Below, in pieces: positions 3,070 to 18,917 of a DNA stretch of 32,365 nt. The translations under genes and the position numbers were made by a program. The stretch is from Candidatus Krumholzibacteriota bacterium (GTDB lineage: Bacteria > Krumholzibacteriota > Krumholzibacteriia > Krumholzibacteriales > Krumholzibacteriaceae), in assembly GCA_030667985.1 (NCBI GenBank), contig DAOUUU010000012.1, positions 1 to 32,365 of the forward strand. The letters are read 5' to 3'. Below the pieces are notes generated by a model. That model was not told where the DNA came from, ran no database searches, and was given only the letters and a program-made list of their open reading frames with translations. How positions within the stretch are numbered: position 1 is the first letter of the stretch; each line of letters begins with the position of its first letter.

Positions 3070-3888
3070 CTATCCTCCGATCTGACACATGAGCCTGTTC
3101 TCGCAGCAGGTTCCCTCCTGGGGTTTGCTCTCGACCGCACATCTTATGCTTCCCTCGATATCTTCCAGGTCGACACTGATCTCCTTGTTCGAGAAGAGAC
3201 AGGGCTTGAGATAACCGTCGGCTGTGAGCCTGAGCTTGTTGCATTCATCGCATGGATGCGGGCGATCGAAAACATGCGGATATTTCAATTCGTCCTTGCG
3301 GTTGTAGAGTGAGAACTGCTTTATCGTCTGCAGGAACAGTCCGTTCATCTCGCAGAATCTCCGCATCGCATCGATCTCGGCGGGGATCGTTCCCTCCGAT
3401 ACGATCATGTTGATCTTGACCGGATCGAGTCCCGCAGCGCGTGCAGCAGCGACGCCTTTAAGAACATCTTCGAGTTCGCCGCCACGCGTTATCTCGGAAA
3501 ACTTCCTCTCGTCGAGCGTGTCCAGGGAGATATTGATGCGCTTTAGCCCCGCAGCTTTGAGCTCCCTCGCCCTGTTCGACGTAAGAAGCGAACCGTTCGT
3601 CGTCATCGAGATATCCTCGAGGCCATTGATACCGCTCAGCATCGCTACGAGCTGCCCGATGCTCTTTCGCACGAGCGGCTCGCCGCCCGTGAGCCGTACT
3701 CTGTCGAAGCCGAGCCGAGCCGCTACGCCCGCGATACGCGTGATCGCCTCGTACGGCAGAATCTCGTCGTGTGATTTCAGAGAAATGCCTTCTTCCGGCA
3801 TGCAGTAAACGCACCGGTAGTTGCACCGGTCTGTGACCGATATCCTGAGGTAGTGGATCCTTCTGCCGAATCTGTCTGTGAGGCTCAA
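3070..3888 (-). CDS. moaA: GTP 3',8-cyclase MoaA, compact form (radical SAM)
   Basis: MoaA is the radical SAM enzyme that rearranges GTP in the first step of molybdopterin synthesis. The SAM cluster motif is CX3CX2C at C22, C26 and C29. The second cluster is C213, C216 and C230 in the family spacing CX2CX13C, and the protein ends in the conserved Gly-Gly tail. At 272 residues it is about 55 shorter than the roughly 329-residue E. coli protein. The missing part lies between the KINMIV strand (159-164) and C213, where the usual RFIE segment is absent. The second-cluster loop reads CNKLRL rather than CNRLRV. The start is a TTG at 3888 with a GGAG about 8 bases upstream; no ATG is available. It heads the moaA-moaC-MOSC-moaB group. 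Confidence 0.88.
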   Translation of the reverse strand: MSLTDRFGRRIHYLRISVTDRCNYRCVYCMPEEGISLKSHDEILPYEAITRIAGVAARLGFDRVRLTGGEPLVRKSIGQLVAMLSGINGLEDISMTTNGSLLTSNRARELKAAGLKRINISLDTLDERKFSEITRGGELEDVLKGVAAARAAGLDPVKINMIVSEGTIPAEIDAMRRFCEMNGLFLQTIKQFSLYNRKDELKYPHVFDRPHPCDECNKLRLTADGYLKPCLFSNKEISVDLEDIEGSIRCAVESKPQEGTCCENRLMCQIGG

Positions 3889-3968: not shown

Positions 3969-5162
3969 CTAATCCGCTACCCGTGTCTCCCTCGTAAGTG
4001 TCACAGCTACATTCTCGCCCGCTTTGATCTCACTCGTACCGACCGGCACGGCGATGAAGCCGTCGGCGAGCGTGTATGCGTGTATATGAGCGGATCCGTG
4101 ATACTCGATCGCTCTCGCTTTGCCATCCTTGTCGAAACGGACGGGAATGTGGGCGATCCGGTCCGACTTTCGCCTCGCCACCGGCTCGGACAGGCGAGCC
4201 GTGACCGTGACGGTTCCACCCTCCGATCCCATGAGCCTGTAGCAGAAAGGGCGGACGAGGAGCTCGAAGACGACAAAGACAGAGACCGGATTTCCCGGCA
4301 GGCCGAAGACAAATGTATCGCCCCGCCGGCCGAAGACGGTCGGCTTGCCCGGCTTCATGGCGACCTTCTCGAATAGAAGATCGAAGCCCTTATCCTCGAG
4401 AACAGCCGGCACATGATCGAACTCCCCCATCGACACGCCGCCTGAGAGGAGAAAGATATCGACCCGATCCATTTCCTCCTCGATGACAGCCCCGATCGCC
4501 TCGGGCGAATCCTCCACGATACCAAGCGGTACGGGCACGCACGCGGCACGTGCGACCTGGCTCTGAAGCTGTGAGCTGTTGCTGTCCCGTATCTGCGCCG
4601 CCGATGGTTTCTTGGAAGGCGAGAGAAGCTCGCTCCCTGTAGTGATAATCCCGATTCTGGGCCTTATAGCCACCGGCACTTCGGCGCATCCGACCGCCGC
4701 TAAGACCGCGACTTCGGCGGGGGTGATAATGGTCCCCTTACGCAGCACGACATCGCCGGTTTCAACATCTTCAGCCTGATAGCAGATATTGAGCACACTC
4801 GATTTCTTTGTGATGACGACCCGCCCGTCACGGATCTCGGTATGTTCGATCATCACAACGCAGTCGGCCCCCTCCGGCACGACTCCGCCCGTCATGATCT
4901 TTGCACATTGGCCCCCGGCAATCTTCTCAGAAGGCGTCCGCCCCGCTGGAATCGTTTCGATGATCTCGAGCGCCAACCCGAGATCTGCCTTTCTGCAGGC
5001 GTATCCGTCCATCGCCGATTTATCGAAGGGGGGCATATCGATATCGGAGACGATATCTTCTGCAAGCACTCTCCCACACGTCTGATCAAGGGAAGCTGTC
5101 TCGCCGCCGAGATATAGGACCGAATCCATGACGATGCGACGGGCATCCTCGAACGGTATCAT
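3969..5162 (-). CDS. moeA: Molybdopterin molybdenumtransferase MoeA
   Basis: MoeA inserts molybdate or tungstate into adenylylated molybdopterin. Visible motifs are MPPFDKSAMDGYA at residues 43-55, the catalytic-domain SGGVSMGEFDHV at 240-251, and GLPGNPVSVFVVFE at 287-300. The four-domain length of about 397 residues is normal. Two ATG codons are possible: 5171, which abuts a GAAGGGGG run, and 5162, which sits about 9 bases from it. I prefer 5162. It starts 2 bases after mobB ends, so the pair is co-translated. In an organism with Wtp uptake and AOR, MoeA may handle tungsten; the sequence does not decide the metal. There is no extra C-terminal substrate-binding domain. Confidence 0.95.
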   Translation of the reverse strand: MIPFEDARRIVMDSVLYLGGETASLDQTCGRVLAEDIVSDIDMPPFDKSAMDGYACRKADLGLALEIIETIPAGRTPSEKIAGGQCAKIMTGGVVPEGADCVVMIEHTEIRDGRVVITKKSSVLNICYQAEDVETGDVVLRKGTIITPAEVAVLAAVGCAEVPVAIRPRIGIITTGSELLSPSKKPSAAQIRDSNSSQLQSQVARAACVPVPLGIVEDSPEAIGAVIEEEMDRVDIFLLSGGVSMGEFDHVPAVLEDKGFDLLFEKVAMKPGKPTVFGRRGDTFVFGLPGNPVSVFVVFELLVRPFCYRLMGSEGGTVTVTARLSEPVARRKSDRIAHIPVRFDKDGKARAIEYHGSAHIHAYTLADGFIAVPVGTSEIKAGENVAVTLTRETRVAD

Positions 5163-5164
5163 AC

Positions 5165-5599
5165 TCAGCATCCCCCTTCAGGAACGGCGCCGGCTAATAG
5201 AATGATCTCCACGACAGTCTTTTCATCGATCTCGAGATCGTGCATGAGCTGCGCGATCGTGCAGCGGCCGACTCGTTCCCCCCGGATGATGTCCGCGTTC
5301 TTGGACAGGCCGACGGCCGACAGCTTTGGCTCGCCGCCGGGGAGATAGATCGCACAGTCGGGCTTTATCTCTTTCAAGATACTGTTGCTCTCTATAACGA
5401 GAAAACCGGCATCGTGATTCTCGTCCGCGATTACGTAATAGGGCGTACCGACATGGTAGAAAACGTTCCCCACATCCTCTTTCTCTGTCCCATGACCGAT
5501 CTTTACATGGACCGCACCAGGGAGCAGCCGGCAGAGCCGTTCCGCGAGCTTTGTCTTGCCCACATTCGAATGAGCGCCAGATATGGCTATTGTCTTCAT
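5165..5599 (-). CDS. mobB: MobB-like P-loop GTPase
   Basis: The 144-residue protein begins with a nucleotide-binding P-loop, GAHSNVGKT, at residues 8-16, and continues with the HVKIGHG segment typical of MobB, the GTP-binding adaptor in molybdopterin guanine dinucleotide synthesis. It is slightly shorter than E. coli MobB (about 170). No mobA is present in the window, and AOR-type enzymes use a non-guanylated bis-pterin, so its role here is unclear. It may chaperone cofactor or serve enzymes encoded elsewhere. It lies between the 62-residue gene and moeA on the same strand. Family membership rests on the P-loop and context. Confidence 0.75.
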   Translation of the reverse strand: MKTIAISGAHSNVGKTKLAERLCRLLPGAVHVKIGHGTEKEDVGNVFYHVGTPYYVIADENHDAGFLVIESNSILKEIKPDCAIYLPGGEPKLSAVGLSKNADIIRGERVGRCTIAQLMHDLEIDEKTVVEIILLAGAVPEGGC

Positions 5600-5623: not shown

Positions 5624-5812
5624 CTAGAAGCACCCCAGCTGGCAGCTGATTAGCTTGATACCGTTCTGGCTGCACAATTCACCGATCTCCCTGAGCGGAA
5701 CCTCGTACTTCTTCGCGATCTCGAAGGCCTCCACGCAGGGAAGCTTCTTCGTATCGTCTATCTCGATCGCCGTTTCCTCGATGACCTTTAACAGTTCTTC
5801 AGCGTTCATCAT
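5624..5812 (-). CDS. Small conserved-looking protein ending CQLGCF, unknown function
   Basis: I do not recognise a characterised family. The 62-residue product starts at an ATG preceded by GGAGG at 6 bases spacing and overlaps the end of modE by 14 bases, which makes it a real coupled gene. It reads as two or three helices followed by IGELCSQNGIKLISCQLGCF. There are Cys residues at C26, C47, C57 and C61, the last two spaced CX3C at the extreme C-terminus. The AFEIAKKYEVPLREIGELC stretch resembles a short helix-turn-helix. The context between modE and mobB suggests a role in metal or cofactor handling, or as a partner of the one-domain ModE. That role is inference only. Confidence 0.7.
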   Translation of the reverse strand: MMNAEELLKVIEETAIEIDDTKKLPCVEAFEIAKKYEVPLREIGELCSQNGIKLISCQLGCF

Positions 5813-6161
5813 CTATACCTCCAATGATTGGTTTCAAATACTCTTCGAATGCTTCATTCATGCACGAACTAACCTCGCTCCGGAACTTCTCCCAGGCGTC
5901 GAGTAACTGCACTCCGAATTCGGTCAGCTCGGTCGCTCCGCCCGACGAGCCGCCCCTCGTCTTCCTCACGATCGCGCGGCCGAAAGCTTCCTCGGCGCTC
6001 TTGATATCGCCCCAGGCCTTGCGGTAACCCCTGCCGAGCTCTCTCGCAGCCTCCTGTATCGAACCGTGCTCTCTCACCGCCATGAGCAGGCGCCACTTTC
6101 CGTCCCCGAAGAGACCCTCGTCCTCATCGGACAGGAGATAGAGCTTAGCGTGAGGTTCCAT
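5799..6161 (-). CDS. modE: One-domain ModE-type transcriptional regulator
   Basis: ModE regulates molybdate uptake and molybdoenzyme genes. The 120-residue protein contains only the winged helix-turn-helix half. LLMAVREHGSIQEAARELG spans about residues 25-43 and the RGGSSGGATELTEFG wing spans 69-83, both hallmarks of ModE. The molybdate-binding TOBE domains of the 262-residue E. coli protein are absent, so oxyanion sensing must come from a partner or not occur. The start ATG has a GGAGG 9 bases upstream. It lies 3 bases after wtpC. A ModE-like operator occurs in front of wtpA (see 9090-9113), suggesting autoregulation of the operon. Confidence 0.88.
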   Translation of the reverse strand: MEPHAKLYLLSDEDEGLFGDGKWRLLMAVREHGSIQEAARELGRGYRKAWGDIKSAEEAFGRAIVRKTRGGSSGGATELTEFGVQLLDAWEKFRSEVSSCMNEAFEEYLKPIIGGIDDER

Positions 6162-6164
6162 GTC

Positions 6165-7211
6165 TCATGCCTCCACAAAGCGCACGGCGCTCGCCTTTAT
6201 GCTCGTCCAGACCCTCTTGCCGCACTCGAGACCCAGGCCCTCGGCCGACTCCTTTGTGACCAGGGCCGCGATCTCGACTCCAATATCGACGATAACCTCG
6301 ATACCGAGACGCACGGGAAAAATATCGGTAATAACTCCGGCGAACACGTTACGCGCACTCGTCCGCGACGGCTCGAGCGATATAATGACATCCTCGCTCC
6401 GTATGATGATGTAACCCTCGCCCTCCTTCGCGTCGGTCAGGATGGAGAGTACGAGCCCCGAGAAACGAAACTCAGCATCGCCGCCCGCTATGAGTACACC
6501 GGGGAAAAAGTTCCTTATTCCTATGAAACGTGCCACGAATTCGGAGGCGGGGCGGCGGAATATCTCATCAGGCGGCCCGGTCTGGACAACCGTTCCCCTC
6601 TCCATGACGCCGATACGGGTCGCGAGAGCGATCGCCTCTTCGTAATCATGCGTCACGTGCACCATCGTTAACCCGCTCCGGTTCAATCTCCTGAGTAGCG
6701 CCCTCATGCCCGACCGCGCGCTGACATCAAGCGAAGATAGCGGTTCGTCGAGGAGCAGGCACTTAGGCTCTGTCACGAGAGCTCTCGCCAGCGCCACGCG
6801 CTGGGCCTCACCCCCGCTCAGGGTCCCGGGCCTGCGTTCCAGGAATGATGTGATCTCGAGATCGCGGGCGATCTCTTCGGTCTGCTTATAAGTGCGGCCG
6901 CGCCCGGCGCCCCTGCTCCGGAGGCCGTAGGCGATGTTCTTTCTGACTGTCATGTGCGGAAAGAGCGCTTGATCCTGAAAGACGAGCCCGATATTTCTGT
7001 TCTGTATCGGTTCTTGCGTGATCTCCCTGCCGTCGAACAGGATCCTCCCTGCGTCGGGAAAAGTAATGCCGGTAATCGTCTCCAGGAGGATCGTCTTGCC
7101 GACGCCCGAGGCTCCAAGAAGGACAAAGTAGTCTCCCCGTCCGACATCAAAGCTGACGTCTCTGACGGCGAAATCACCCAGCTTTTTGGAAAGGCCCTCA
7201 ACCTTCAGCAT
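6165..7211 (-). CDS. wtpC: Tungstate/molybdate ABC transporter ATP-binding protein
   Basis: This cytoplasmic ATPase powers oxyanion import. Motifs in order are Walker A GASGVGKT (33-40), Q-loop FQDQALFPHMTV (78-89), signature LSGGEAQRVALARAL (131-145), Walker B CLLLDEP (151-157) and the switch His in MVHVTHDYEEA. About 60 C-terminal residues match the TOBE-type oxyanion-binding domain found on ModC/WtpC. I chose the ATG at 7211, directly after a GGGGGGAGG site. The frame to 7247 would begin inside wtpB without a better site. It overlaps wtpB by 14 bases. ModC versus WtpC is assigned from the neighbouring binding protein. Confidence 0.93.
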   Translation of the reverse strand: MLKVEGLSKKLGDFAVRDVSFDVGRGDYFVLLGASGVGKTILLETITGITFPDAGRILFDGREITQEPIQNRNIGLVFQDQALFPHMTVRKNIAYGLRSRGAGRGRTYKQTEEIARDLEITSFLERRPGTLSGGEAQRVALARALVTEPKCLLLDEPLSSLDVSARSGMRALLRRLNRSGLTMVHVTHDYEEAIALATRIGVMERGTVVQTGPPDEIFRRPASEFVARFIGIRNFFPGVLIAGGDAEFRFSGLVLSILTDAKEGEGYIIIRSEDVIISLEPSRTSARNVFAGVITDIFPVRLGIEVIVDIGVEIAALVTKESAEGLGLECGKRVWTSIKASAVRFVEA

Positions 7212-7992
7212 GACGCCTCCCCCCTGCCACGACCCTGAGGACGACAAAGAAGGCGAGACAGACCCCGATAAAGAGAACAGCCACGGGCCGCGCGTACTTG
7301 AGCCCGAAGGCGCCGAAGCGCTCGTAGATCAGGACCGGCGTGATCATCGGGTGGTAGGCAACAACGAGAACCGCCCCGAACTCGCTCATCCCCCTCGCCC
7401 ACATCAGAATCGATCCGGACAGGATAGACCGCCACGCCATCGGCACAGAGATCGTCAGGAAGACCCTGAGCGGCGAGGCGCCGAGGTTCAGCGCCGCCTT
7501 CTCGAGCTGCTCCGGCACTGCGGCGAAGCCGTCGCGGGCCGCGTTTATAAGAAAAGGTACGCTGACAAAGGCCATCGCCGCCATGATCCCTGCATATCCG
7601 CCGACGAAGCGCACACCCACACGTTCCCCCAGGTCGCCGATCAGAGTGCCCCGCGAGATAATCCCGAGAAGCGCTATCCCGGCGGCCGAATGGGGGATCA
7701 CGATCGGCAGGTCAATGATCCCGTTCACGAGCTGCTTCAGGGGAAACCGCTTCCTTGCGAGGATATAGGCGAACGGCACCGATACCACAGCGAAGATGAG
7801 CGTCGCCCCCATCGATGCGAGCAGTGTGAGCCGCACGCTTCCCGCAACCTCCGGGTCTCGCGCGGTCTCTGCAAGCTGCCCACCAGTGGTACTGAGAAGC
7901 ATGCCGAGAAGAGGCGCAACGATAAAGAGGAGCACGAGCCCTCCGAGCCCCATGAATATCAGATGCACAGGTTCAAATCTTTTCCTGGTCAT
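7198..7992 (-). CDS. wtpB: Tungstate/molybdate ABC transporter permease
   Basis: This 264-residue inner-membrane permease has five to six hydrophobic segments, beginning at about residue 10 with LIFMGLGGLVLLFIVAPLLG. The family EAA-like loop ALNLGASPLRVFLTISVP is followed by RGMSEFGAVLVVAYHPMITP, typical of ModB/WtpB. It sits 6 bases after wtpA and overlaps wtpC, so it forms the channel of one transporter. The ATG at 7992 has only a weak ribosome site, which fits translational coupling to wtpA. Confidence 0.92.
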   Translation of the reverse strand: MTRKRFEPVHLIFMGLGGLVLLFIVAPLLGMLLSTTGGQLAETARDPEVAGSVRLTLLASMGATLIFAVVSVPFAYILARKRFPLKQLVNGIIDLPIVIPHSAAGIALLGIISRGTLIGDLGERVGVRFVGGYAGIMAAMAFVSVPFLINAARDGFAAVPEQLEKAALNLGASPLRVFLTISVPMAWRSILSGSILMWARGMSEFGAVLVVAYHPMITPVLIYERFGAFGLKYARPVAVLFIGVCLAFFVVLRVVAGGRRHAEG

Positions 7993-7998
7993 GATAGA

Positions 7999-8973
7999 TC
8001 AACTCACCGGACCGGGTGGAAGGGCGAAGCCTTTGAGCTCGTCGGGGAGCTTATCGTACGTGTCCGTCGGTGAAGGCACAAGCGGCGGCTGCCCGTTCCG
8101 CTCCATAATAGTAAGACCCTTATCGACGTCCAGCAGAAACCGGACGAACTCGAGCGCGAGCGAAGGATCGGGGGCGTTCTTCGGGATCGTGACGCCGTAG
8201 ACCATCGGCGCGCCGCGTTTTGTGATCGTGGTTCCAGGCTCCCTGCCAGATATCTCGACCGATACCGCCTTGTACACCTTCGCAAATTCAGGGCTCTTCA
8301 GGTTTATCTCGTCCGGAAGGAGTAGATAATCGAGTCCATGCTGCTGCGCCACGGACCGGTATAAAAAGATGAAGTCTATCGTGCCGGTCTCCAGCAGTGC
8401 CAAGAGATCGGTCTCCTTGGGACGGATATACTCGGTGTCCTTTTCGAGAAGCTGTGCGCTAAGACCCTCCATGCCGTAATACATCCCCGCCAGCTTCATC
8501 GCGAGTACCGCCCTGTAGCCGCACGGGTCGGAGTCGGGGTCCGACCTGCCGAAGGCGACACCGTCCCGGAGCAGAAGCTCGTGCCAGTTTTCGACATTTA
8601 TCTCGTCAGAGCCCCGCGACTTGTCATGGTAGACGATCGCCATCTCGTTGCCGGCGAACCTGATATTCCAATCGGCATGCTCGGGGATCAAAAGCTCGTC
8701 GATCACCGTGTAGTCGGCCGAAGCCATCACATCGCACCACCTGTCGAGGTCCGCGATCTTGCGTGCGCACGCCCGGCTTCCCGCCGCCTCGAGAAGAACA
8801 CGGACACCGGAATGTTCCTTCTCGAACTCATCGGCGATCTGCCTAAGCGGCACTGCCAGGCTTCCCGCGTGAAAGATCACCAGCTCCCGAGACCCGGACC
8901 GCTCGCCTTCTGTCGAACAGGAAGCTAACATCATGGCTGCTATCGTCATCAATGCTAAAGAGAGTTTATTCAA
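7999..8973 (-). CDS. wtpA: Tungstate/molybdate-binding lipoprotein WtpA
   Basis: This is the extracytoplasmic oxyanion-binding component. The sequence FHAGSLAVPL (34-43), EAAGSRACARKIADL (62-76) and CDVMASADYTVID (80-92) is the WtpA/ModA type-II pattern seen in archaeal and bacterial high-affinity tungstate binders. I place the start at the TTG at 8973, because a GAGGTG site sits about 6 bases upstream and the protein then has a compact lipoprotein signal ending LASC (C19). A GTG at 8982 is the alternative and adds three residues. It is the first gene of the operon and diverges from the AOR genes. Tungstate preference is inferred from the WtpA-like motif and the AOR neighbour. Confidence 0.93.
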   Translation of the reverse strand: MNKLSLALMTIAAMMLASCSTEGERSGSRELVIFHAGSLAVPLRQIADEFEKEHSGVRVLLEAAGSRACARKIADLDRWCDVMASADYTVIDELLIPEHADWNIRFAGNEMAIVYHDKSRGSDEINVENWHELLLRDGVAFGRSDPDSDPCGYRAVLAMKLAGMYYGMEGLSAQLLEKDTEYIRPKETDLLALLETGTIDFIFLYRSVAQQHGLDYLLLPDEINLKSPEFAKVYKAVSVEISGREPGTTITKRGAPMVYGVTIPKNAPDPSLALEFVRFLLDVDKGLTIMERNGQPPLVPSPTDTYDKLPDELKGFALPPGPVS

Positions 8974-9082
8974 GGACTTCACCTCAATACTATCGAGAGC
9001 CTTTTCATGGCTTCAACCCGTGTCGATGATGATTCCTGCCTTTAACGCACCATATGCTAATGGAAATCGGAATAAGGCCGCG

Positions 9083-9088
9083 TGTCAA
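9083..9088 (-). promoter_or_regulatory. Candidate -35 box for the wtpA operon
   Basis: Read on the minus strand these bases are a perfect TTGACA, lying immediately downstream of the ModE-like operator and about 110 bases upstream of wtpA. The best -10 at 17 bases spacing (TTCCAT) is poor, so the promoter is only a candidate. Confidence 0.35.
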
Positions 9089-9089
9089 G

Positions 9090-9113
9090 GGATATGTTCG
9101 AATGAACATAACG
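9090..9113. promoter_or_regulatory. ModE-like operator in the wtpA/AOR divergent region
   Basis: The core is a perfect 18-base inverted repeat, TATGTTC-GAAT-GAACATA, at 9093-9110. Taken as an 8-8-8 element it reads GGATATGT, eight bases, ACATAACG. This resembles the E. coli modA operator as I recall it (CGTTATAT, eight bases, ACATAACG). The right half is identical and the left half matches the ideal mirror CGTTATGT at 6 of 8 bases. It overlaps the likely -35 of the AOR promoter and abuts a TTGACA on the other strand, so one bound regulator could control both units. Binding by the local ModE is inference. Confidence 0.6.
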
Positions 9114-9131
9114 ATTTCGGCTTTATATAAA
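9103..9131 (+). promoter_or_regulatory. Candidate promoter of the split-AOR operon
   Basis: A TGAACA hexamer (9103-9108, 4 of 6 to the sigma-70 -35) lies exactly 17 bases from TATAAA (9126-9131, 5 of 6 to the -10). Transcription would start near 9138, leaving a leader of about 60 bases before the ATG at 9199. The -35 sits inside the palindromic operator, the arrangement expected for repression. Confidence 0.55.
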
Positions 9132-9198
9132 TTCCAAAACGTTGTATATTTCCCATTCCGAATAAATGCAACCAATGACAGCGAGAAGGAGCTCCCGA

Positions 9199-12100
9199 AT
9201 GGCGGAAAAACTCATAAAAAAGATGAAGGATGCCCACGAGACACTCTGCGAATTCCCCTTCGAGGTAATCGAATTGGAAAAGGGTTACGCGAGAAGGTGG
9301 CTCAGGGTAGACCTCGACAAGAACGAGATCGGTATCCACCCGGTCTCACAGGAGATGATAGACCTCTGGACGGGTGGCAAGGGATTCGACCTCTGGCTCA
9401 CCTTCCAGGAGATCGACAAGGAGACGAGATGGGACAGCCCGAACAACCCGATCTGCTTCTCCTCGGGACCGCTCGGCGGCACTACTTCATTTCCCGGCTC
9501 GGGCAAAACGCTCGTAACCGCCATCTCCCCCCTCACAGATTCGATGATGGACTGCAACGTGGGCGGCTACTTCGGCCCCTACCTGAAATTCGCGGGACTC
9601 GATGCGCTGATGGTGACGGGAAAGGCGAAGGAGGATGTCATAGTCCTGATCGACGCGGTCGCCGGCAAGGTCACGATCGAAAAGGCCCCTCTTGAAAGCG
9701 TCGACTCTCATCTTCTCTCCGAGGAGCTGACCGAGATGTACGCGGACAACGAGCTCGACCGCAGGAACATCGCCTGCGTCTCGGCGGGCCGTGGAGCGGA
9801 GCACACCCGCATGGGAGTCCTGAACTTCTCCTTCTATGACTGGCGGCGAGACTTTCCCAGGATCAAGCAGGCGGGGCGGGGCGGCATCGGAACCGTCTTC
9901 AGGAACAAGAAGATCAAGGCCGTGATCGCGAAGAACCGTCAGATCACCCCCGCCTGGCGCATCGCCGAAAACAAGGTCGCAGAGCTTACAACCCCCAAGA
10001 AGATCTCTGTCCAGACATGCAAGAGCGAGATCGACACGATCCACGAGATCATCGAGAAGTGGAACAGCGATCCTGAATATGTCATCGAGATGATGCAGGA
10101 CATACAGGAACGCTACCGCCACATATCAAAGACCGCGATAGATGAGATCTGCAAGAAGACCGGCCGGCAGAAAGCCCATCTCTATCACATCGCCACCTTC
10201 TACAAGGCATTCAGCCTCGAGCCGCGCGGAGAAACGACCATCCAGGTCTGCCTCGGAACTGCCTGTCACGTCAAGGGCGGATCCCGAATCCTCGATTCCT
10301 TCGAGCGCGTGCTAGGGATAGAGACGGGCCAGACTACAGGGGACAACAAGTACACACTCGAGGCGGTCGCCTGCCTCGGCGCCTGCAGCATCGCGCCTGT
10401 CGTTAAGATCGGCGAAGAGGTCTTCGGCAACGTCAAGGCGAAGGATGTCGAAAAGCTCCTGAAAGAAGCGGCCAAGGCGGAGAAACCCGACGCCAAGAAG
10501 GATGAAAAGACCGCGAAGGCAGCCGGAAAGAAGAAAAAGAAGATCGATCTTGATAAAATCGCAGCGGCCGAAAAGAAATCGGCTGCCGGCTACAAGAAGA
10601 TGCTTATGGTCTGCACCGGCACCGGCTGCGTATCGGCGAAGGGTTTTGTCATCCGCGACCGCCTGATAAAGGTGCTCGAGGAACGCAAACTCGACAAGGA
10701 TTTTCTAGTCGTCGGCACTGGGTGCAACGGCTTCTGCGCAATGGGGCCGATAATAGTCACGCAGCCGGACGGCACCTTCTACCAGAAAGTGAAAGAGAAG
10801 GATATCACAGAGATCGTCGACGCGCTCGTCGAAGGAAAAGTCGTTGAGCGGCTTCTGCATACCGATCCCGTCTCGGGCGCGGTGAACGAGAAAATGGAAG
10901 AGATCGCCTTCTTCAGCAAGCAGCAGCTGATAGCGCTCAGGAACAAGGGCCTGATAGATCCGGAGAATATCGATCACTACATCGCGCGCGGCGGCTATCA
11001 ATCATTGAAAAAGATCTTGGCAAACACCGAGCCAGAAGGGGTCATACAGGAGGTGATCGCTTCGGGCATCAGGGGACGCGGTGGAGGAGGATTCCCCGCG
11101 GGTGTCAAGTGGAAGTCCGGCCTCGAGGCTGCCCGTGAGCGCGAGGAGGAGATCTATGTCGTCTGCAACGCCGACGAGGGAGACCCGGGTGCCTTCATGG
11201 ACCGGAGCATCATCGAGACAGACCCCCACTCGGTAATCGAGGGGATGGTGATAGGCTCCTACGCCGTGGGCGCCGCCCAAGGATACATCTACATCAGAAA
11301 GGAGTACCCGCTCGCCATGGTGCGGCTGGAGAAAGCGATCGCTCAGGCGAGAGAGTACGGCCTGCTCGGTGATGATATACTCGACAGCGGGCACAGCTTC
11401 GACATACACATACATCGGGGCGCCGGCGCCTTCGTATGCGGGGAGTCGAGTGCTCTGATGATATCGATGGCGGGAAAACCGGGCGAACCGCGCGCAAAGT
11501 ATGTGCACAGCGTCGAGTACGGCTACCGGGACAAACCGACCGTGCTGAACAACGTAGAGACCTGGGCAAACATACCGGCGATCATGGAAAAGGGGGCGAA
11601 ATGGTTCGCCTCAATCGGCTCGGGAGATGTGAGCGACAACCCGTGGGGCGGATCGAGCGGGACCAAGGTGTTCTCTCTGGTCGGCAATATCCGGAATACT
11701 GGACTCGTCGAGGTCCCGATGGGGATCACGCTGAGAGAGATCATCGAGGAGGTGGGCGGCGGCATACCGGACGGACGCGAGTTCAAGGCGGTCCAGACGG
11801 GCGGCCCAAGCGGCGGATGCCTGCCCGCTAACAAGCTCGACATGCCGGTCGACTTCGACTCCCTGACAGAGGCAGGCTCTATGATGGGCTCGGGTGGCAT
11901 GATCGTGATGAACGACCGCGCTTGCATGGTCGATGTAGCGAAATACTTCGTCGATTTTCTAATGGACGAATCATGCGGCAAGTGTACACCCTGCCGCGAG
12001 GGGCTTCACCTGATGCACAACATACTCTCTGACATCTGTGAAGGCCGCGGCGAGGAAGGAGATATCGAAAAACTGGAGGAGCTGTGCGGCACAATCAAGG

Positions 12101-12405
12101 AGATGAGCCTATGCCAACTCGGAGGCTCCGCACCCAATCCGGTTCTCAGCACGATCAACTATTTCCGCGAGGAGTATGAACAGCATATAAAGGAGAAACG
12201 ATGCGTTGCGGGGGTGTGCAAAACACTCATTGAATACCGCATCGACGATGACAAGTGCACAGGCTGCACGCTGTGCGCCAAGAACTGTCCGGCCGAATGC
12301 ATCTCGGGCGAGCCGAAAAAAATCTACACTATCGACGGCACAAAATGCATAAAGTGCGGGATCTGTTACGAAGTCTGCAAATTCGACGCAGTGGAGGTGA
12401 TATAA
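9199..12405 (+). CDS. AOR domain 1 fused to NuoE and NuoF: NAD(H)-linked diaphorase subunit of a split AOR complex
   Basis: This 1068-residue fusion has several modules. Residues about 25-250 are AOR N-terminal domain 1: KGYARRWLRVDL (28-39), WTGGKGF (57-63), SPLTDSMMDCNVGGYFGPY (110-128) and AGRGGIGTVFRNKKIKAV (225-242), the base of the tungstopterin pocket. Residues 280-425 are NuoE with a [2Fe-2S] site (C351, C356, C392, C396). A Lys/Ala-rich linker (425-467) follows. Residues 468-1000 are NuoF: an N-terminal [2Fe-2S] domain (C472, C477, C509, C513), the FMN/NADH site GRGGGGFPAGVKW (626-638), and a [4Fe-4S] site (C926, C929, C932, C972). H996, C1002 and C1007 resemble the HydB zinc region. 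The tail is a 2x[4Fe-4S] ferredoxin (C1020-C1060). The ATG at 9199 follows AGAAGGAG; the in-frame ATG at 9166 lacks one. No AOR domain 2 or 3 is present here. The next gene supplies them and overlaps by one base. Confidence 0.93.
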   Translation: MAEKLIKKMKDAHETLCEFPFEVIELEKGYARRWLRVDLDKNEIGIHPVSQEMIDLWTGGKGFDLWLTFQEIDKETRWDSPNNPICFSSGPLGGTTSFPGSGKTLVTAISPLTDSMMDCNVGGYFGPYLKFAGLDALMVTGKAKEDVIVLIDAVAGKVTIEKAPLESVDSHLLSEELTEMYADNELDRRNIACVSAGRGAEHTRMGVLNFSFYDWRRDFPRIKQAGRGGIGTVFRNKKIKAVIAKNRQITPAWRIAENKVAELTTPKKISVQTCKSEIDTIHEIIEKWNSDPEYVIEMMQDIQERYRHISKTAIDEICKKTGRQKAHLYHIATFYKAFSLEPRGETTIQVCLGTACHVKGGSRILDSFERVLGIETGQTTGDNKYTLEAVACLGACSIAPVVKIGEEVFGNVKAKDVEKLLKEAAKAEKPDAKKDEKTAKAAGKKKKKIDLDKIAAAEKKSAAGYKKMLMVCTGTGCVSAKGFVIRDRLIKVLEERKLDKDFLVVGTGCNGFCAMGPIIVTQPDGTFYQKVKEKDITEIVDALVEGKVVERLLHTDPVSGAVNEKMEEIAFFSKQQLIALRNKGLIDPENIDHYIARGGYQSLKKILANTEPEGVIQEVIASGIRGRGGGGFPAGVKWKSGLEAAREREEEIYVVCNADEGDPGAFMDRSIIETDPHSVIEGMVIGSYAVGAAQGYIYIRKEYPLAMVRLEKAIAQAREYGLLGDDILDSGHSFDIHIHRGAGAFVCGESSALMISMAGKPGEPRAKYVHSVEYGYRDKPTVLNNVETWANIPAIMEKGAKWFASIGSGDVSDNPWGGSSGTKVFSLVGNIRNTGLVEVPMGITLREIIEEVGGGIPDGREFKAVQTGGPSGGCLPANKLDMPVDFDSLTEAGSMMGSGGMIVMNDRACMVDVAKYFVDFLMDESCGKCTPCREGLHLMHNILSDICEGRGEEGDIEKLEELCGTIKEMSLCQLGGSAPNPVLSTINYFREEYEQHIKEKRCVAGVCKTLIEYRIDDDKCTGCTLCAKNCPAECISGEPKKIYTIDGTKCIKCGICYEVCKFDAVEVI

Positions 12406-14402
12406 TGGCTACGGAAAAGATCACGATCACGATAGACGGCAAGGAAGTTTCAGTAGTCAAGGGCTCCTACCTTCTCGGCGTCCTCCGCGACAACGGAGTC
12501 CATGTCCCCACCCTCTGCTTCCACAAGGACCTCACGCCTCAAGGGCTCTGCAGGCTCTGCACGGTCGAGATCGAGCAGCGGGGCAGAAAGAAACTTGTTA
12601 CATCCTGCAACTTCCCGGTCCGCGGAGAGATAAAGGTGGAGACCGCTTCGGAGCGGGTAAAGGCTCACCGCAAGCGGCTCGCCGAGATGTATCTTGGCCG
12701 CTGGCCGGAGGTGCCCACGATCCAGGCGATCGCAAAGCTCTGCGGCGCGACCGACAGGGAGAAGTACAGGAGCGAGCTGACCGACGAGAATCCCAAGGCA
12801 TGTATCCTCTGCGGTCACTGCGTGCTCGCATGCGACGAGTTCGTCATGGAGCGCATCCTCGATTTCGCCGGCCGCGGCATCAAGAGGCATCTGACGATGC
12901 CGTTCGGCGAGGTGGATCCCCACTGTATCGGCTGCACCTCCTGCGCATACGTCTGTCCCACCGGAGCAATCGAGATCGTGGACGACATGAACCATCCGGT
13001 CGACCCGCAGCTCATACGCGAATACGGCATGAAGATCAACGCTGAGATGGCGACGCTGGACAAATCACAGTGCCGGATGCGCGAAGTCGGCACGGCGAAT
13101 ATCGTCGACGTCATGGACGCCTACGACCTCCTTCCAGTCCATAACTACCAGTACGGGGCGCACGAGGACACGCCGAAGATCAACTCGGTAACGCTCAAAC
13201 AGGACTACTTCACACAGGATCACCCTGACGGATGCTGGAAGGGATGTTCGATGGCCTGCGCCAAGACGGTCGACGGCTTCGAGATCAAGACCGGCCCCTA
13301 CAAAGGCCAGATCGTTACGGTCGACGGGCCGGAGTACGAGACGGCAGCCGCCTGTGCCAACATGGGTTGTTTCGACGGCGATTTCGTCGTCGAGTTCAAC
13401 TTCTATTGCGACACATACGGGATCGACACGATCTCGATGGGCACCTGCACGGCCTTTGTCATGGAATGCTACGAGAACGGCATCATCACGAAAGAGCATA
13501 CGGGCGGCAAGGAACTGAAGTTCGGCGCGACCGCCGAGGTACTCGAGTGCCTCCACGAGGCGGCGCTGGGCAAAGGTTTCGGCGTCGAGGTCGGACAGGG
13601 GATACGCAGGCTCAAAGAAAAATGGGCCAAGGAGCTCGGCGCGGATCCAGATTTCCTGAAGGATATCGGGATGGAAGCGAAGGGGCTCGAGTACAGCGAG
13701 TACATGTGCAAGGAATCACTCGCGCAGCAGGCCGGGTACACACTGGCGGTGAAGGGACCGCAGCACGACGAGGCATGGCTCATCTTCATGGATATGGTCA
13801 ACAACCAGATCCCCTCCTTCGAGGACAAGGCCGAGGCGCTCTACTACTATCCTCTCTGGAGAACATGGTTCGGACTCCACGGCCTCTGCAAGCTGCTCTG
13901 GAACGATGTGGTGCCGCTCAGCAACAAGAACTTCAAGCCGCAGGAGGCGGCCAAGGTCCCCGAGCATGTCGAGGACTTCTTCAAGTTCCACGAGGGGATG
14001 ACCGGCATTCCGCTCGACGAGGAGAGCATGCTGGCCCAGTCGGCACGAGTGCATAACCTCCAGCGCGTCATGTCGCGCATGTTCGGTTTCGGCACGAGAA
14101 AAAACGACATACCCCCCTACCGGGCGGTCGGTCCCGTGACAAAGGCCGAGTACGAATCCAGGGCCGAGCGGTATGACAAACAGATGAATGAAATCATCGG
14201 TATCGATCCCGAGGGAAAGAACATAGAGGAAAAGATAAAGATCCTCCGCGAGTACCGGATGGAACAGTACAACAAGGTCGTGGACTCCGCCTATCTGCGC
14301 CGCGGATGGACGAGTAACGGCGTCCCGAAGATAGAGCGGCTGAAAGAACTCGGTATCGATCTTCCCGAGCTCGTCGAAATCGTAAAGGACGATCAGGAGT
14401 GA
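12405..14402 (+). CDS. NuoG/HydA-type ferredoxin head fused to AOR domains 2-3: catalytic subunit of a split AOR complex
   Basis: The 665-residue protein starts at an ATG sharing one base with the upstream stop (TAATG); the longer frame to 12255 lies inside the previous gene. Residues 1-80 are a NuoG-type [2Fe-2S] domain (C38, C49, C52, C68). The His/Cys cluster motif that usually follows is missing. Two [4Fe-4S] sites come next (C133, C136, C139, C143 and C174, C177, C180, C184). From about 205 the protein is AOR domains 2 and 3: GTANIVDVMD, LLPVHNYQYG, the cluster CX3CX3C at C277, C281 and C285 with a distant C494 (LHGLCKL), GPEYETAAACANMG (308-321) and YGIDTISMGT (338-347). AOR domain 1 is absent. 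The usual KG-E-P-DPRG segment is replaced by VKGPQHDEAW (449-458), so the substrate may differ from simple aldehydes. It probably forms a heteromer with the upstream gene product. Confidence 0.93.
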   Translation: MATEKITITIDGKEVSVVKGSYLLGVLRDNGVHVPTLCFHKDLTPQGLCRLCTVEIEQRGRKKLVTSCNFPVRGEIKVETASERVKAHRKRLAEMYLGRWPEVPTIQAIAKLCGATDREKYRSELTDENPKACILCGHCVLACDEFVMERILDFAGRGIKRHLTMPFGEVDPHCIGCTSCAYVCPTGAIEIVDDMNHPVDPQLIREYGMKINAEMATLDKSQCRMREVGTANIVDVMDAYDLLPVHNYQYGAHEDTPKINSVTLKQDYFTQDHPDGCWKGCSMACAKTVDGFEIKTGPYKGQIVTVDGPEYETAAACANMGCFDGDFVVEFNFYCDTYGIDTISMGTCTAFVMECYENGIITKEHTGGKELKFGATAEVLECLHEAALGKGFGVEVGQGIRRLKEKWAKELGADPDFLKDIGMEAKGLEYSEYMCKESLAQQAGYTLAVKGPQHDEAWLIFMDMVNNQIPSFEDKAEALYYYPLWRTWFGLHGLCKLLWNDVVPLSNKNFKPQEAAKVPEHVEDFFKFHEGMTGIPLDEESMLAQSARVHNLQRVMSRMFGFGTRKNDIPPYRAVGPVTKAEYESRAERYDKQMNEIIGIDPEGKNIEEKIKILREYRMEQYNKVVDSAYLRRGWTSNGVPKIERLKELGIDLPELVEIVKDDQE

Positions 14403-15016: not shown

Positions 15017-15043
15017 CGGCCGTTATATTTGAAAGAAGATCAC

Positions 15044-15244
15044 GTGATCACGATCAACAACAGAGACAAGATCGAGTGGAGAGATGGAATGACGGTGCAG
15101 GTCCTGCTCGACGATATGGGATACAGCTACACACTGATCACGGTAACGGTAGACGGCCGACTCGTCTCCGAGGAAGAGTACGATTCCTTTGTCATAGACG
15201 ACGGCGCCAGCGTCGGCGTCTTCCACCTCGCCCACGGCGGCTGA
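15044..15244 (+). CDS. MoaD/ThiS-family sulfur carrier protein
   Basis: The product is about 66 residues and ends in the diagnostic Gly-Gly (AHGG), the site of adenylation and thiocarboxylation. It begins MITINNRDKIEW, like ThiS/MoaD beta-grasp proteins, and contains GMTVQVLLDDMGY. I chose the GTG at 15044 because a GAAAGAAG stretch lies upstream and the family N-terminus aligns; a TTG at 15029 is the alternative. It sits 27 bases after its likely activating enzyme. In this setting it probably donates sulfur to the AOR pterin, although no moaE is in the window. MoaD versus ThiS cannot be settled by sequence alone. Confidence 0.85.
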   Translation: MITINNRDKIEWRDGMTVQVLLDDMGYSYTLITVTVDGRLVSEEEYDSFVIDDGASVGVFHLAHGG

Positions 15245-15482: not shown

Positions 15483-16376
15483 ATGAGCAAAGAGCTGATG
15501 ACGACCAGAGAGGTCGCCAAGTACCTTAAACTCAACGAAAAGAAGGTCTACGCGCTGGCGAAGGGCGGGGATATGCCCTGCACGAAGGTGACAGGCAAAT
15601 GGCTCTTCCCGAAGGAGCACATCGATTCCTGGATAGAAAAAAGCGTCCATCCCGCCTCGATGCCGGAAGAGTTCGAACATATCAAAATCGTCGGAAGCCA
15701 CGACCCGGCGATCGATCTCCTCGCATCTGAGGTGAACGGCCGATTTCCGCGCATCACACTACTCGCGGCCCACATAGGCAGCCTCGGAGGACTGGAGGCG
15801 CTTGCCCGCGGCGAGGCTCATATCAGCGGCATACACCTGCTCGATCCAGAAACGAACGATTACAATCTCAGCTACGTAAAAAAAGTTGCAGCTGGTCTGA
15901 ACCCTGTCGTCGTCCACTTCCTCGACCGTGAACAGGGCCTGATGACGCAGCCGGGCAATGCCCTCCAGATAGAGGGAATCAAGGATCTCACAAGACAGGG
16001 AGTACGCTTCATAAACAGGCAGAAGGGCTCTGGAACGAGGATACTCCTCGATTTCAACCTCGAGAGGCTGGGTATTGCTCCGGACGGGATAACAGGCTAC
16101 GACGATTGCGCATCGACTCACACGGAAGTCGCCACGGCAATAAGGAGCGGCAGCGCCAACGCCGGCCTCGGTCTGCGCACGGCGGCTGTCAGTGCCAATC
16201 TGGATTTCATTTCAATAACAAAAGAACGGTACGACCTCGTCATACCGAGGACATACTTCTATACGGAACCGGTACAGAAGTGTTTAGAGGTTGTCCGCTC
16301 CAAGCACTTCATGGAAAGGGTGGAACGCCTGGGCGGATACGATACGACCGATTCAGGCACTGTGCTCGTATGGTAA
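15483..16376 (+). CDS. Excisionase-type HTH fused to a periplasmic-binding-like (PBP) sensor domain
   Basis: Residues 5-53 are an excisionase/MerR-like DNA-binding domain (MTTREVAKYLKLNEKKVYAL, then KWLFPKEHIDSWIEK). Residues about 65-297 are the PBP-like domain also found at the C-terminus of archaeal MoeA and in molybdate-linked regulators. Its hallmark FINRQKGSGTRILLD is at 177-191, followed by GYDDCASTHTEVATAI and SGSANAGLGL. There is no signal peptide, so it is a cytoplasmic one-component regulator that probably senses molybdate, tungstate or a cofactor product. A GGGAGG lies about 12 bases before the ATG at 15483; an in-frame ATG at 15498 is possible. Position after the AOR operon suggests it controls that operon or the downstream genes. 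Ligand and targets are inferred. Confidence 0.85.
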   Translation: MSKELMTTREVAKYLKLNEKKVYALAKGGDMPCTKVTGKWLFPKEHIDSWIEKSVHPASMPEEFEHIKIVGSHDPAIDLLASEVNGRFPRITLLAAHIGSLGGLEALARGEAHISGIHLLDPETNDYNLSYVKKVAAGLNPVVVHFLDREQGLMTQPGNALQIEGIKDLTRQGVRFINRQKGSGTRILLDFNLERLGIAPDGITGYDDCASTHTEVATAIRSGSANAGLGLRTAAVSANLDFISITKERYDLVIPRTYFYTEPVQKCLEVVRSKHFMERVERLGGYDTTDSGTVLVW

Positions 16377-16428
16377 CAGGCGGGATCTGGGAAACGGCCG
16401 GAGAGTTTAACTCTACAAAAGGAGCGTA

Positions 16429-17676
16429 ATGCGTAACGATCACTTCACATTCACCTGGAAACATGCGGCGCTCACGATCCTGATATCTGCCGCGGGTGCG
16501 GCCATCGGCATCGGCTGCTCGGACGACACGAGCACGAATCCGACCGAGATCATCTCTTCCAGATCTTACCAGGGTCACGCGACTGACGCGGACATCAACA
16601 GCTTCGTCAAGACCTACCCCCATACGGTCGGAACCAGACTCGACGACTGTCAGACCTGCCACAAGGGTGGAGCGGTGAATGACGGCGAAGGCGATGTGTG
16701 GGCCAACGCCTGTGATTACTGCCACTATGTGATCCATCCCCCCGCCGGCTGGTCCGGACTGCCGGAGAGCTTCGAGGAGACATTGAATCCCTACGGGGCG
16801 GCATACAACGACGCGGGAAGGAACGCAGGCGGCCTGGATGATATTGCGGGCCTCGACAGCGATAACGACGGTTACACCAACACGGAGGAGATATCGGAGC
16901 TTCGCTACCCGGGCGATGACGGAAGCTACCCCGGTCTCGACATCTGCCCGATGATCACGTTGACCATGGCGGAACTCAAAGCGATGCCGCCCCACACACA
17001 GTTCGGGCTCGCCAACACAACGAAGCAGCAGTTCGACTTCTACGCGACCTACACCGGGGTTAAAATCGTGGACATACTCGCGGAGAAAGGCATCGATCTC
17101 ACGGGCGCGACCAGCATCGATATACTGGCACCGGACGGGTACGCAAAATCCTTCACCCTCGCACAGATCACCGAACAGTATCCCGATCACAGATTCTTCT
17201 CCGGTTTCGGCGTCGAGGATCTCGGGACCGACTGCGCCTTCGTCGAGTACCCAGACGAGACCTACGGTCTAGCGTACGGGGAATGGATAGGCGAGGAGCT
17301 TGGCCACGAACAGTGGCACATCTTAGCCTACGAACGCGAAGGACTGCCAATCGAGGAATCCTATCTCGATCCTGTGACAGGAAGGATCGAAGGGGAAGGC
17401 CCGTTCAGAAACGTCATCCCCCCCGGCTCTCCTGATGACGATCTCAACACGCCCGACCGGGGAAAAAATGCCGAGACGAGCGGCTGCATGTTGCCTGAGT
17501 GGAATTACGACTACGAGAAGGATCACAACGCAAGCAGCATGGTGAAAGGAACCGTCATCATCCGCATCAATCCAATGCCGGAAGGTTGCGAGGAGTTCGA
17601 TATCATAAACGGTGGATGGGCAATGATCGACGCGGCGGTCATACTTATCTACGGACATAATGTGACGGGAGAGTGA
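16429..17676 (+). CDS. Exported two-CXXCH lipoprotein of unknown family, possible redox partner
   Basis: The 415-residue protein has an N-terminal hydrophobic segment ending AIGIGC (C30), probably a lipoprotein signal although the -3 residue is not canonical. Two haem-binding motifs follow: CQTCH (74-78) and CDYCH (95-99). Next is a calcium-loop-like DSDNDGYTNTEE (143-154), as in thrombospondin type-3 repeats. The rest begins ITLTMAELKAMPPHT (176-190) and includes a GV-IVDIL segment and IEGEGPFRNVIPP (320-332). This recalls the extracytoplasmic pterin-oxidoreductase-like fold, but I cannot name a family. An AAGGAG site sits 4 bases before the ATG. It lies 52 bases after the regulator and may share its transcript. 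A periplasmic electron-transfer role is inference. Confidence 0.75.
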   Translation: MRNDHFTFTWKHAALTILISAAGAAIGIGCSDDTSTNPTEIISSRSYQGHATDADINSFVKTYPHTVGTRLDDCQTCHKGGAVNDGEGDVWANACDYCHYVIHPPAGWSGLPESFEETLNPYGAAYNDAGRNAGGLDDIAGLDSDNDGYTNTEEISELRYPGDDGSYPGLDICPMITLTMAELKAMPPHTQFGLANTTKQQFDFYATYTGVKIVDILAEKGIDLTGATSIDILAPDGYAKSFTLAQITEQYPDHRFFSGFGVEDLGTDCAFVEYPDETYGLAYGEWIGEELGHEQWHILAYEREGLPIEESYLDPVTGRIEGEGPFRNVIPPGSPDDDLNTPDRGKNAETSGCMLPEWNYDYEKDHNASSMVKGTVIIRINPMPEGCEEFDIINGGWAMIDAAVILIYGHNVTGE

Positions 17677-17753
17677 TACGGTTGCAGCCCCTTGCTCCGA
17701 AAGCATGTTCATTACGATAAAGTCACTCCACTCACTTGGAACGGCCGTCCTTC

Positions 17754-18917
17754 ATGCCTAGAAACATTGCCATTATTCTCTCTATCCTCGTCCTGACCGG
17801 CTTCGTCACGCCCGCCGCGGCGGATTCTCCAAGGATAGGCATCGAGGTAAACTCGAGCTTCTGGGTCACGATCTACGAGGAGGTGGAGAACGGGCTCGTT
17901 CAGCCTGGAAGCGGCGACGCCGCCGCCGATCACGCCTCCGGCTTCAACTTCAAGCTCGGGCGGATCGCACTAACCTTCGAATCTCCCGACCGGAAGATAG
18001 AGGCGCTAGTCAGGCTGCGCCTCGAGGAGCGGACGGACGTAATTTCCTTCTGGGGCGCCTATCACGCAGCTCCCTGGCTCGGGGCGTATATCGGGCAGAT
18101 GAAGATCCCATCGACCGCCGAGGTTCTCGCCCCCGATCACCTGATCGACTTCCTGTCGAGAACTACATTCGGCCGCAATGTCGGCGACTTCTCGCTCTCG
18201 AGAACCCCCTACATCTCTTCGATCATGTCGGCAAAATCGTACGACCGAGATCTGGGAATCGCGCTAAAAGGCAGGTTTCCTCTCGGCGAGATACCCTTCG
18301 CGCGATACTTCATCATGGTAAGCAACGGCATCGGCGCGAACAGGTACATAGGCGGCGATACTAGCGAGGAATTCATCTACACCAACAGCTTCGGCGATTT
18401 TTACTACGGCGCCAGGCTTGAGATCGCCCCCTCCCCCATAATCGCGCTCGGAACCCATCTCAGCATGAACAAGCACGACAATATGACCCTCGGAGACAGA
18501 GGGCCCGTCTACGACATCGACCGCCGCGTCTGGACCGCCGACTCGAGGATCGAGCTTCCGACCGGACTGCGCCTCGAGGGATTCTACGGAGTGGGCTCTA
18601 TGGACGATTTTCTCGAATCCCAGAATTACAGGTTCGATTACAGTGGGTGGGGCATATGGGCGGTTCAGCCTCTGCTTGATGGGATGTTCGAGCTCTGCTT
18701 CCGGTACGACACCTTCACCCATGAATACAACAATGACGGAAACGACACTAGCCAGAACGACTTGACAGCGGGAATCAACTACCGCCCCTCCGAGTATCTG
18801 AGGCTGCAGCTAAACTACGCCTTTAAACAAACCATGAATGAATACGAGGAAGACCTCTCCGACAACATCCTCTACTTGAACGCGCAGTTCATTTTCGATG
18901 CCTTCTTGATGGAGTAA
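17754..18917 (+). CDS. Outer-membrane porin, phosphate-selective (OprO/P)-like
   Basis: The protein is about 387 residues with a signal peptide (LSILVLTGFVTPAAADS). The mature part is full of alternating hydrophobic/polar beta-strands and aromatic girdle residues, for example VSFWGAYHAAPWLGAYIGQM and YRLQLNYAFKQTM-type strands. It ends in a strand with a terminal hydrophobic pattern (NAQFIFDAFLME). This is the OprO/P-like 16-strand barrel pattern. I chose the ATG at 17754; the upstream TTG at 17736 is not better supported. The 77-base gap before it shows only a poor promoter with 15-base spacing. It may import an anion used by the neighbouring system, such as tungstate; that is speculation. 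Confidence 0.75.
   Translation: MPRNIAIILSILVLTGFVTPAAADSPRIGIEVNSSFWVTIYEEVENGLVQPGSGDAAADHASGFNFKLGRIALTFESPDRKIEALVRLRLEERTDVISFWGAYHAAPWLGAYIGQMKIPSTAEVLAPDHLIDFLSRTTFGRNVGDFSLSRTPYISSIMSAKSYDRDLGIALKGRFPLGEIPFARYFIMVSNGIGANRYIGGDTSEEFIYTNSFGDFYYGARLEIAPSPIIALGTHLSMNKHDNMTLGDRGPVYDIDRRVWTADSRIELPTGLRLEGFYGVGSMDDFLESQNYRFDYSGWGIWAVQPLLDGMFELCFRYDTFTHEYNNDGNDTSQNDLTAGINYRPSEYLRLQLNYAFKQTMNEYEEDLSDNILYLNAQFIFDAFLME

Follow-up and report, generated by a model that had tools for sequence, protein, structure and literature searches.

A ModE-type operator lies at positions 9090-9113 of the window, by which we mean the contig G000:C157 in full, 32,365 bases of a metagenome-assembled genome (2.5 Mb) from the Krumholzibacteriota. 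In our judgement it is likely to be the operator of the adjacent wtpABC-modE-CQLGCF-P-loop-moeA-moaA operon and to be bound by the single-domain ModE encoded there, in a closed loop of autorepression. The AOR genes on its other side would in general not be a target, and the small protein encoded next to modE, here called the CQLGCF protein, would be the likeliest partner of the regulator.

Gene neighbourhood of the operator

Minus-strand genes extend leftwards from the operator: wtpA, wtpB, wtpC, modE, the 62-aa ORF, the P-loop ORF, moeA and the moaA-like gene. The plus-strand genes to its right are the AOR pair, thiF and a short ORF resembling worX. The modE gene within the wtpA operon had already been recognised in an earlier reading of the sequence alone. 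The features on which the argument draws are as follows.

3070-3888, minus strand: moaA-like radical SAM gene (Radical_SAM and weak Mob_synth_C matches)
3969-5171, minus strand: moeA (MoeA_N, MoCF_biosynth, MoeA_C)
5165-5599, minus strand: small P-loop protein, MobB-like by position (conserved G-x-GK(T/S); weak CbiA at best)
5624-5812, minus strand: 62-aa CQLGCF protein, candidate partner or sensor (start overlaps the modE stop; invariant C26, C47, C57)
5799-6161, minus strand: modE, 120 aa, restricted to the DNA-binding domain and proposed to read the operator (HTH_1; TIGR00637; PDB ModE matches)
6165-7247, minus strand: wtpC, ATPase that carries a TOBE domain (Pfam TOBE over its cut-off, NF040840 under)
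7198-7992, minus strand: wtpB, permease (NF040839, E 6e-85, below its cut-off)
7999-8982, minus strand: wtpA, tungstate-binding lipoprotein (NF003196 and TIGR03730 above cut-off)
9060-9065, minus strand: candidate wtpA -10, TTCCAT (spacing 17, weak in the window)
9083-9088, minus strand: wtpA -35 hexamer, TTGACA (1 base beyond the operator)
9090-9113, no strand assigned: ModE-type operator, 8-8-8 element (held-out matrix, conservation, mismatch count)
9122-9127, plus strand: conserved AOR promoter -35, TTTATA (TT(T/C)ATA-17-TATATT type)
9145-9150, plus strand: conserved AOR promoter -10, TATATT (same promoter type in relatives)
9199-12405, plus strand: AOR gene 1, joining an AFOR N domain to NuoE-, ferredoxin- and NuoF-like parts (first listed with a start at 9166)
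12405-14402, plus strand: AOR gene 2, joining a NuoG-like N part to AFOR domains 2-3 (domain matches)

The true start of wtpC is probably slightly inside the frame given. Relatives retain the same gene order, with the moaA-like gene again after moeA, and in G005 the position of the P-loop protein is taken by a frame that reads by eye as MobB-MobA. The small ORF after thiF (15044-15244) ends in AHGG, MoaD/ThiS-like as judged by eye, and is probably the worX of the AOR operon.

The operator element

The operator reads GGATATGT-TCGAATGA-ACATAACG, two inverted half-sites of the CGNTATRT type in 8-8-8 register. In the right half the agreement with the CGTTATGT/ACATAACG half-site is complete; the left half carries two mismatches, both of types that also occur in the sites of relatives. 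This agrees with the sequence-only reading, which had described an 8-8-8 element whose right half matches the E. coli modA operator. The perfect 18-base palindrome that it placed at 9093-9110 is not one, because two 7-base arms (TATGTTC and GAACATA) flank a 4-base centre, GAAT, so that only 14 of 18 positions equal the reverse complement.

A search for CGTTATGT-N8-ACATAACG with at most two mismatches returned a single match in the window and none in 100 shuffles, and a matrix built from 11 relatives with the window held out scored the operator at 32.2 bits, against 14.8 bits for the best of 40 simulated windows. Genome-wide, the plain consensus with two or three mismatches is not discriminating: the window's own genome gave one match versus two for a reversed control at up to two mismatches, and four versus four at up to three. 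A degenerate pattern derived from the wtpA sites, SGWTATGY-N8-RCATAWCS, matched the same genome once, with no control matches. Since the plain consensus does no better than its reversed control, the evidence for the operator lies in its position, its conservation and the degenerate pattern.

Some further matches were set aside. A second one in the window (15021-15044, 17.0 bits) abuts the start of the worX-like ORF, is without support in relatives and was treated as chance. Away from wtpA, plain-consensus matches with at most two mismatches numbered six in 25 genomes, equal to the six control matches; they include one in a sugar-epimerase gene and one in a redox-protein gene (both named by eye), and only the g7 matches upstream of the operon of ORF 16429 were retained as a lead.

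Conservation at wtpA and recurrence before other operons

The gene wtpA was detected in 18 of 58 genomes, the window's own included. Two of the 17 relatives (G013 and G015) have contigs that begin inside wtpA and were excluded from the upstream counts, leaving 15 with readable upstream sequence. Lack of conservation of the palindrome in relatives had been named beforehand as one observation that would refute the earlier reading; instead the element is kept upstream of wtpA in 11 of the 15, all 11 in the window's order of Krumholzibacteriota. No operator was found upstream of wtpA in the other four (G030, G033, G036 and G042), which belong to other families of the class outside that order. The 12 wtpA sites, window and 11 relatives, have leave-one-out scores of 24-33 bits.

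Across 78 genomes of the phylum, the degenerate pattern gave 17 matches in 16 genomes and its reversed control none. Eleven of these lie at wtpA and do not count as independent support, because both pattern and matrix were drawn from wtpA sites. Three more, nearly identical to the wtpA sites, stand before CQLGCF-modE operons: in G005, G054 and G061 the site is located away from the wtpA promoter, directly before the ribosome-binding site of an operon that contains the 62-aa gene and modE. Two others (G006:C36 and G013:C76) directly precede the orthologue of window ORF 16429, which is accompanied by its porin-like partner. The remaining match, in G062, is unexplained; it scores 20.0 bits (L168, G062:C167:107-130) and lies about 120 bp upstream of a 398-aa P-loop frame, and no ModE was found in that genome. 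A Chitinivibrionales genome carries the same operon, CQLGCF protein included, and a short way upstream of its wtpA there is a site of lower score, 18.0 bits. A single frame with a Gram-negative porin domain in G006 has a 25.8-bit ModE-type site just upstream (L070:4889-4912, G006:C18).

The site tracks the regulator. ModE is present in 22 of the 78 genomes, and the site occurs in 13 of these 22 versus 3 of the 56 genomes without ModE (Fisher p 8e-7, uncorrected for kinship); outside families f1 and f2 the corresponding figures are 2 of 6 and 1 of 47 (p 0.03). In two of the three site-bearing genomes without ModE (G009 and G021) the site is at wtpA and the contig ends before the place of modE. 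Conversely, the ModE gene of G033 has no site nearby and that of G052 only a 9.7-bit one.

This co-occurrence, together with the ModE half-site printed in PMC2700814 that the element carries, also bears on the idea that another regulator reads the operator, for instance the TaoR-like protein encoded in the window (15483-16376). Its gene does lie downstream of the AOR genes on the same contig, and TaoR is described in PMC11980592 as a regulator of a tungsten AOR. The TaoR-like gene does not go wherever this AOR and its promoter go, however: full-length relatives were found in only 3 of the 25 genomes of the order, and in all three the gene precedes the ORF-16429 operon. We therefore regard a reader of this kind as very improbable, and keep ModE as the proposed reader.

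The surroundings of the TaoR-like gene were compared over the window (15483-18917) and the loci L132, L133, L071 and L169. In all 3 genomes with the full-length gene (HTH_17 and PBP_like), it precedes an operon for a Porin_O_P protein and a secreted protein that has CxxCH motifs and matches nothing in Pfam. Two genomes of genus g7 that lack a full-length TaoR-like gene have a ModE-type site of 29-32 bits directly upstream of the same operon instead.

Position at the wtpA promoter and mode of control

The TTGACA facing wtpA, which had been said to touch the element, is on the minus strand at plus-strand positions 9083-9088 and starts one base beyond the operator. This distance is the same in all 12 sites, the window and 11 relatives. 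The hexamer begins TTGAC in 11 sites and TTGCA in one; it is the full TTGACA in 7 of the 12 and matches at five of six positions in four more. The candidate -10 is less uniform, matching TATAAT at three of six positions in the window and G011 and at four or five of six in the other ten. Near-consensus -35 hexamers are unusual in activator-dependent promoters.

We propose that the single-domain ModE, itself a product of the operon, binds 9090-9113 in dimeric form, immediately next to the wtpA -35. With enough metal in the cell, uptake of tungstate (perhaps also of molybdate) and the pterin-cofactor genes would be shut off, so that the operon's own ModE would repress the operon in a closed loop. 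Tungstate is the presumed signal because wtpA passes both WtpA models. A repression operator in an autoregulatory loop is the best reading, because the site borders a strong -35 on its upstream side and, in three other genomes, falls between promoter and ribosome-binding site.

The main alternative is an activator site, at which ModE just upstream of the wtpA -35 would help RNA polymerase. Activation would explain the strict one-base spacing, invariant in 12 of 12 sites; the -10 is weak in the window and G011; and E. coli ModE also activates moaABCDE, as stated in PMC11980592. The strength of the -35, full in 7 of 12 sites and one position short in four, argues against it, as do G005, G054 and G061, where the site would follow any promoter and precede the ribosome-binding site, as suits a repressor site. 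On balance we think activation unlikely and retain repression as the probable mode. No Moco/Tuco riboswitch match at the Rfam gathering score was found in the window.

The AOR operon has its own promoter

The sequence-only reading had the operator overlap an AOR-facing promoter, TGAACA-17-TATAAA, and proposed that one site coordinates metal import with enzyme production. The sequence itself is present (9103-9131), and its promoter role is not supported: none of 11 relatives has it overlapping the operator, even with two mismatches, and it looks like a chance match whose TATAAA overlaps a different, conserved AOR -35. A promoter of the TT(T/C)ATA-17-TATATT type precedes the AOR gene in 10 of 10 loci, and in 12 of 14 in a wider set with up to two substitutions allowed. 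AOR gene 1 starts at 9199, not at 9166.

The distances on the two sides of the operator behave differently. From operator to conserved AOR -35 the gap is 8 (window), 10, 28, 35, 35, 50, 131, 133 and 174 bp. Among the 14 AOR loci of the wider set, five lack an operator within 1.5 kb; three of these five, those of G009, G020 and G022, where AOR is located away from wtpA, nevertheless keep the AOR promoter. The motif scan suggested for regions upstream of wtpA and AOR was accordingly positive at wtpA in the relatives (11 of 15) and returned no site at AOR away from wtpA, nor did the degenerate pattern match any such AOR gene in the 78 genomes of the phylum. Because the wtpA -35 gap is fixed, the AOR gap is variable and the AOR promoter persists without the operator, we link the operator to wtpA and take the AOR promoter to be independent of the operator.

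A single operator switching both the wtp and the AOR operons, and so coordinating import with enzyme production, would be attractive where the two share a control region: the operator lies in the common aor1-wtpA intergenic region in nine loci, window included, and comes within 8-10 bp of the AOR -35 in two of them, the window and G002. The spread of that gap from 8 to 174 bp, against a wtpA gap fixed in 12 of 12 sites, speaks against such a switch, as do the uniqueness of the previously proposed AOR-facing promoter to the window (0 of 11), the three genomes whose AOR promoter has no operator, and the lack of pattern matches at AOR genes away from wtpA. We thus find coordination through one site improbable and favour an AOR operon that uses its own conserved promoter and in general is not a target of the operator. 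In the window, where the gap is only 8 bp, a local influence on AOR is possible; nothing shows selection for it.

At the AOR -35 region itself (window 9121-9133), many relatives have a conserved CTTTATATCTGAA, degenerate in the window, G007, G011 and G014, which is possibly the site of another AOR regulator.

The AOR catalytic chain (9199-14402) appears split and re-fused across the two genes: in gene 1 an AFOR N domain corresponding to 1AOR residues 6-210 stands beside NuoE-, ferredoxin- and NuoF-like parts, and in gene 2 domains 2-3, corresponding to 1AOR from residue 240, follow a NuoG-like part. Both genes are conserved in relatives at 60-83% identity, and each has parts similar to the electron-bifurcating AOR in PDB entry 9mqx. 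Since a 2026 survey of the enzyme family demanded that a single chain contain both domains, it would overlook split forms (PMC13328260).

A single-domain ModE and its small neighbour

The window ModE consists of 120 aa and has no TOBE domain; the canonical E. coli type carries one or two metal-binding TOBE/MOP domains at its C-terminus. HTH_1 is above its cut-off, TIGR00637 is matched with E 9e-20 at 70.6 bits, under the cut-off of 98.5, and the sequence matches to the PDB ModE entries 2ijl, 1b9m and 1o7l (2e-11 to 3e-7) cover the winged helix only. Three ModE frames elsewhere (G015:C258:2648-2995, G022:C241:17580-17927 and G052:C152:11715-12056) contain one internal stop each, through decay or assembly error.

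Because this ModE is without a metal-binding domain, its signal must come from elsewhere. A separate TOBE protein was considered as sensor and discarded, the sole TOBE domain over cut-off in the window's genome being that of wtpC; wtpC itself may be the sensor. The likeliest partner would be the adjacent three-cysteine CQLGCF protein. Its 62-aa frame starts inside the modE stop region in the window, and an alignment over 14 genomes retains C26, C47, C57 and the end CQLG-x-F. It was found in 18 of 80 genomes of the phylum, in all 18 with ModE beside it, and the gene order varies, the 62-aa gene preceding modE in G005, G052, G054 and G061. Four genomes (G023, G024, G030 and G058) have ModE and no CQLGCF protein, and G030 also has no wtpA operator. 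In G033 (L100, G033:C14) a CQLGCF-like segment forms the C-terminus of a 320-aa frame that looks by eye like MobA; the frame that follows, of 280 aa, looks by eye like MobB with a ModE helix attached. This fusion is a clue to physical partnership of the CQLGCF, MobA/MobB and ModE proteins.

The CQLGCF protein has no Pfam, NCBIfam or PDB sequence match above noise. Its fold was modelled with confidence (pLDDT 92.6) and had no clear match, with a best Foldseek E of 0.54 and VIA-align Z of at most 6.0 against unrelated small domains. Our choice of partner comes from gene neighbourhood only: ModE adjacency in 18 of 18 genomes, the overlap in the window, the occurrence in either order, the G033 fusion and the Chitinivibrionales operon. 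More tentatively, the protein, perhaps with the adjacent P-loop protein, might be a detached sensor that sets whether ModE holds the wtp operator, reporting tungstate, molybdopterin or iron-sulfur/redox state.

Discussion

The E. coli modABC operator, with the consensus ATCGCTATATA-N6-TATATAACGAT (PMC2700814), shares with the element described here the outer half-sites CGNTAT...ATANCG, the 8-8-8 register and the place upstream of an oxyanion ABC transporter. In contrast to E. coli, G/C replaces A/T inside the halves (TATGT/ACATA), the operator serves tungstate wtpABC and abuts the -35, and the ModE is without TOBE domains. The modDABC site of Geobacter sulfurreducens in Table 6 of PMC545781 is likewise of the E. 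coli type and adjoins a transporter, modE being co-localised there too, although in that species ModE is full-length and the transporter is for molybdate.

Regulators reduced to the DNA-binding domain have precedents. In PMC545781, the ModE proteins of Desulfovibrio and D. psychrophila are of this form, and the sensing mechanism of the single-domain Desulfovibrio ModE is stated as not clear; the Desulfovibrio sites given there, CGGTCACG-N14-CGTGACCG, are unrelated to the window operator, and the passages on these proteins mention no partner of the CQLGCF kind, unlike here. Campylobacter jejuni ModE (Cj1507c) also has no metal-binding domain and represses both a molybdate and a tungstate transporter, according to the summary of PMC7011364. 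The same summary relays the proposal that it belongs to a multiprotein complex and identifies no partner, whereas the Krumholzibacteriota offer the CQLGCF protein as a candidate. TaoR, as cited in PMC11980592, resembles the present case in being tied to tungsten AOR and in having a TaoR-like gene in the window; it differs in its DNA-binding family and is not general in the window's order. A literature search of titles and abstract beginnings found no description of this operator or of the CQLGCF protein.

The analysis places a defined ModE-type operator on the tungstate importer of an uncultured phylum, where the regulator is encoded in the operon itself. It also corrects the link from that operator to the neighbouring tungsten enzyme, which is tempting and lacks support. 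The conserved CQLGCF neighbour is a concrete, testable candidate for the sensing question raised by single-domain ModE proteins. The part most worth following is the missing sensor of ModE and its constant small neighbour, which, if the proposed role is true, would explain metal sensing by ModE proteins that have no domain for binding it.
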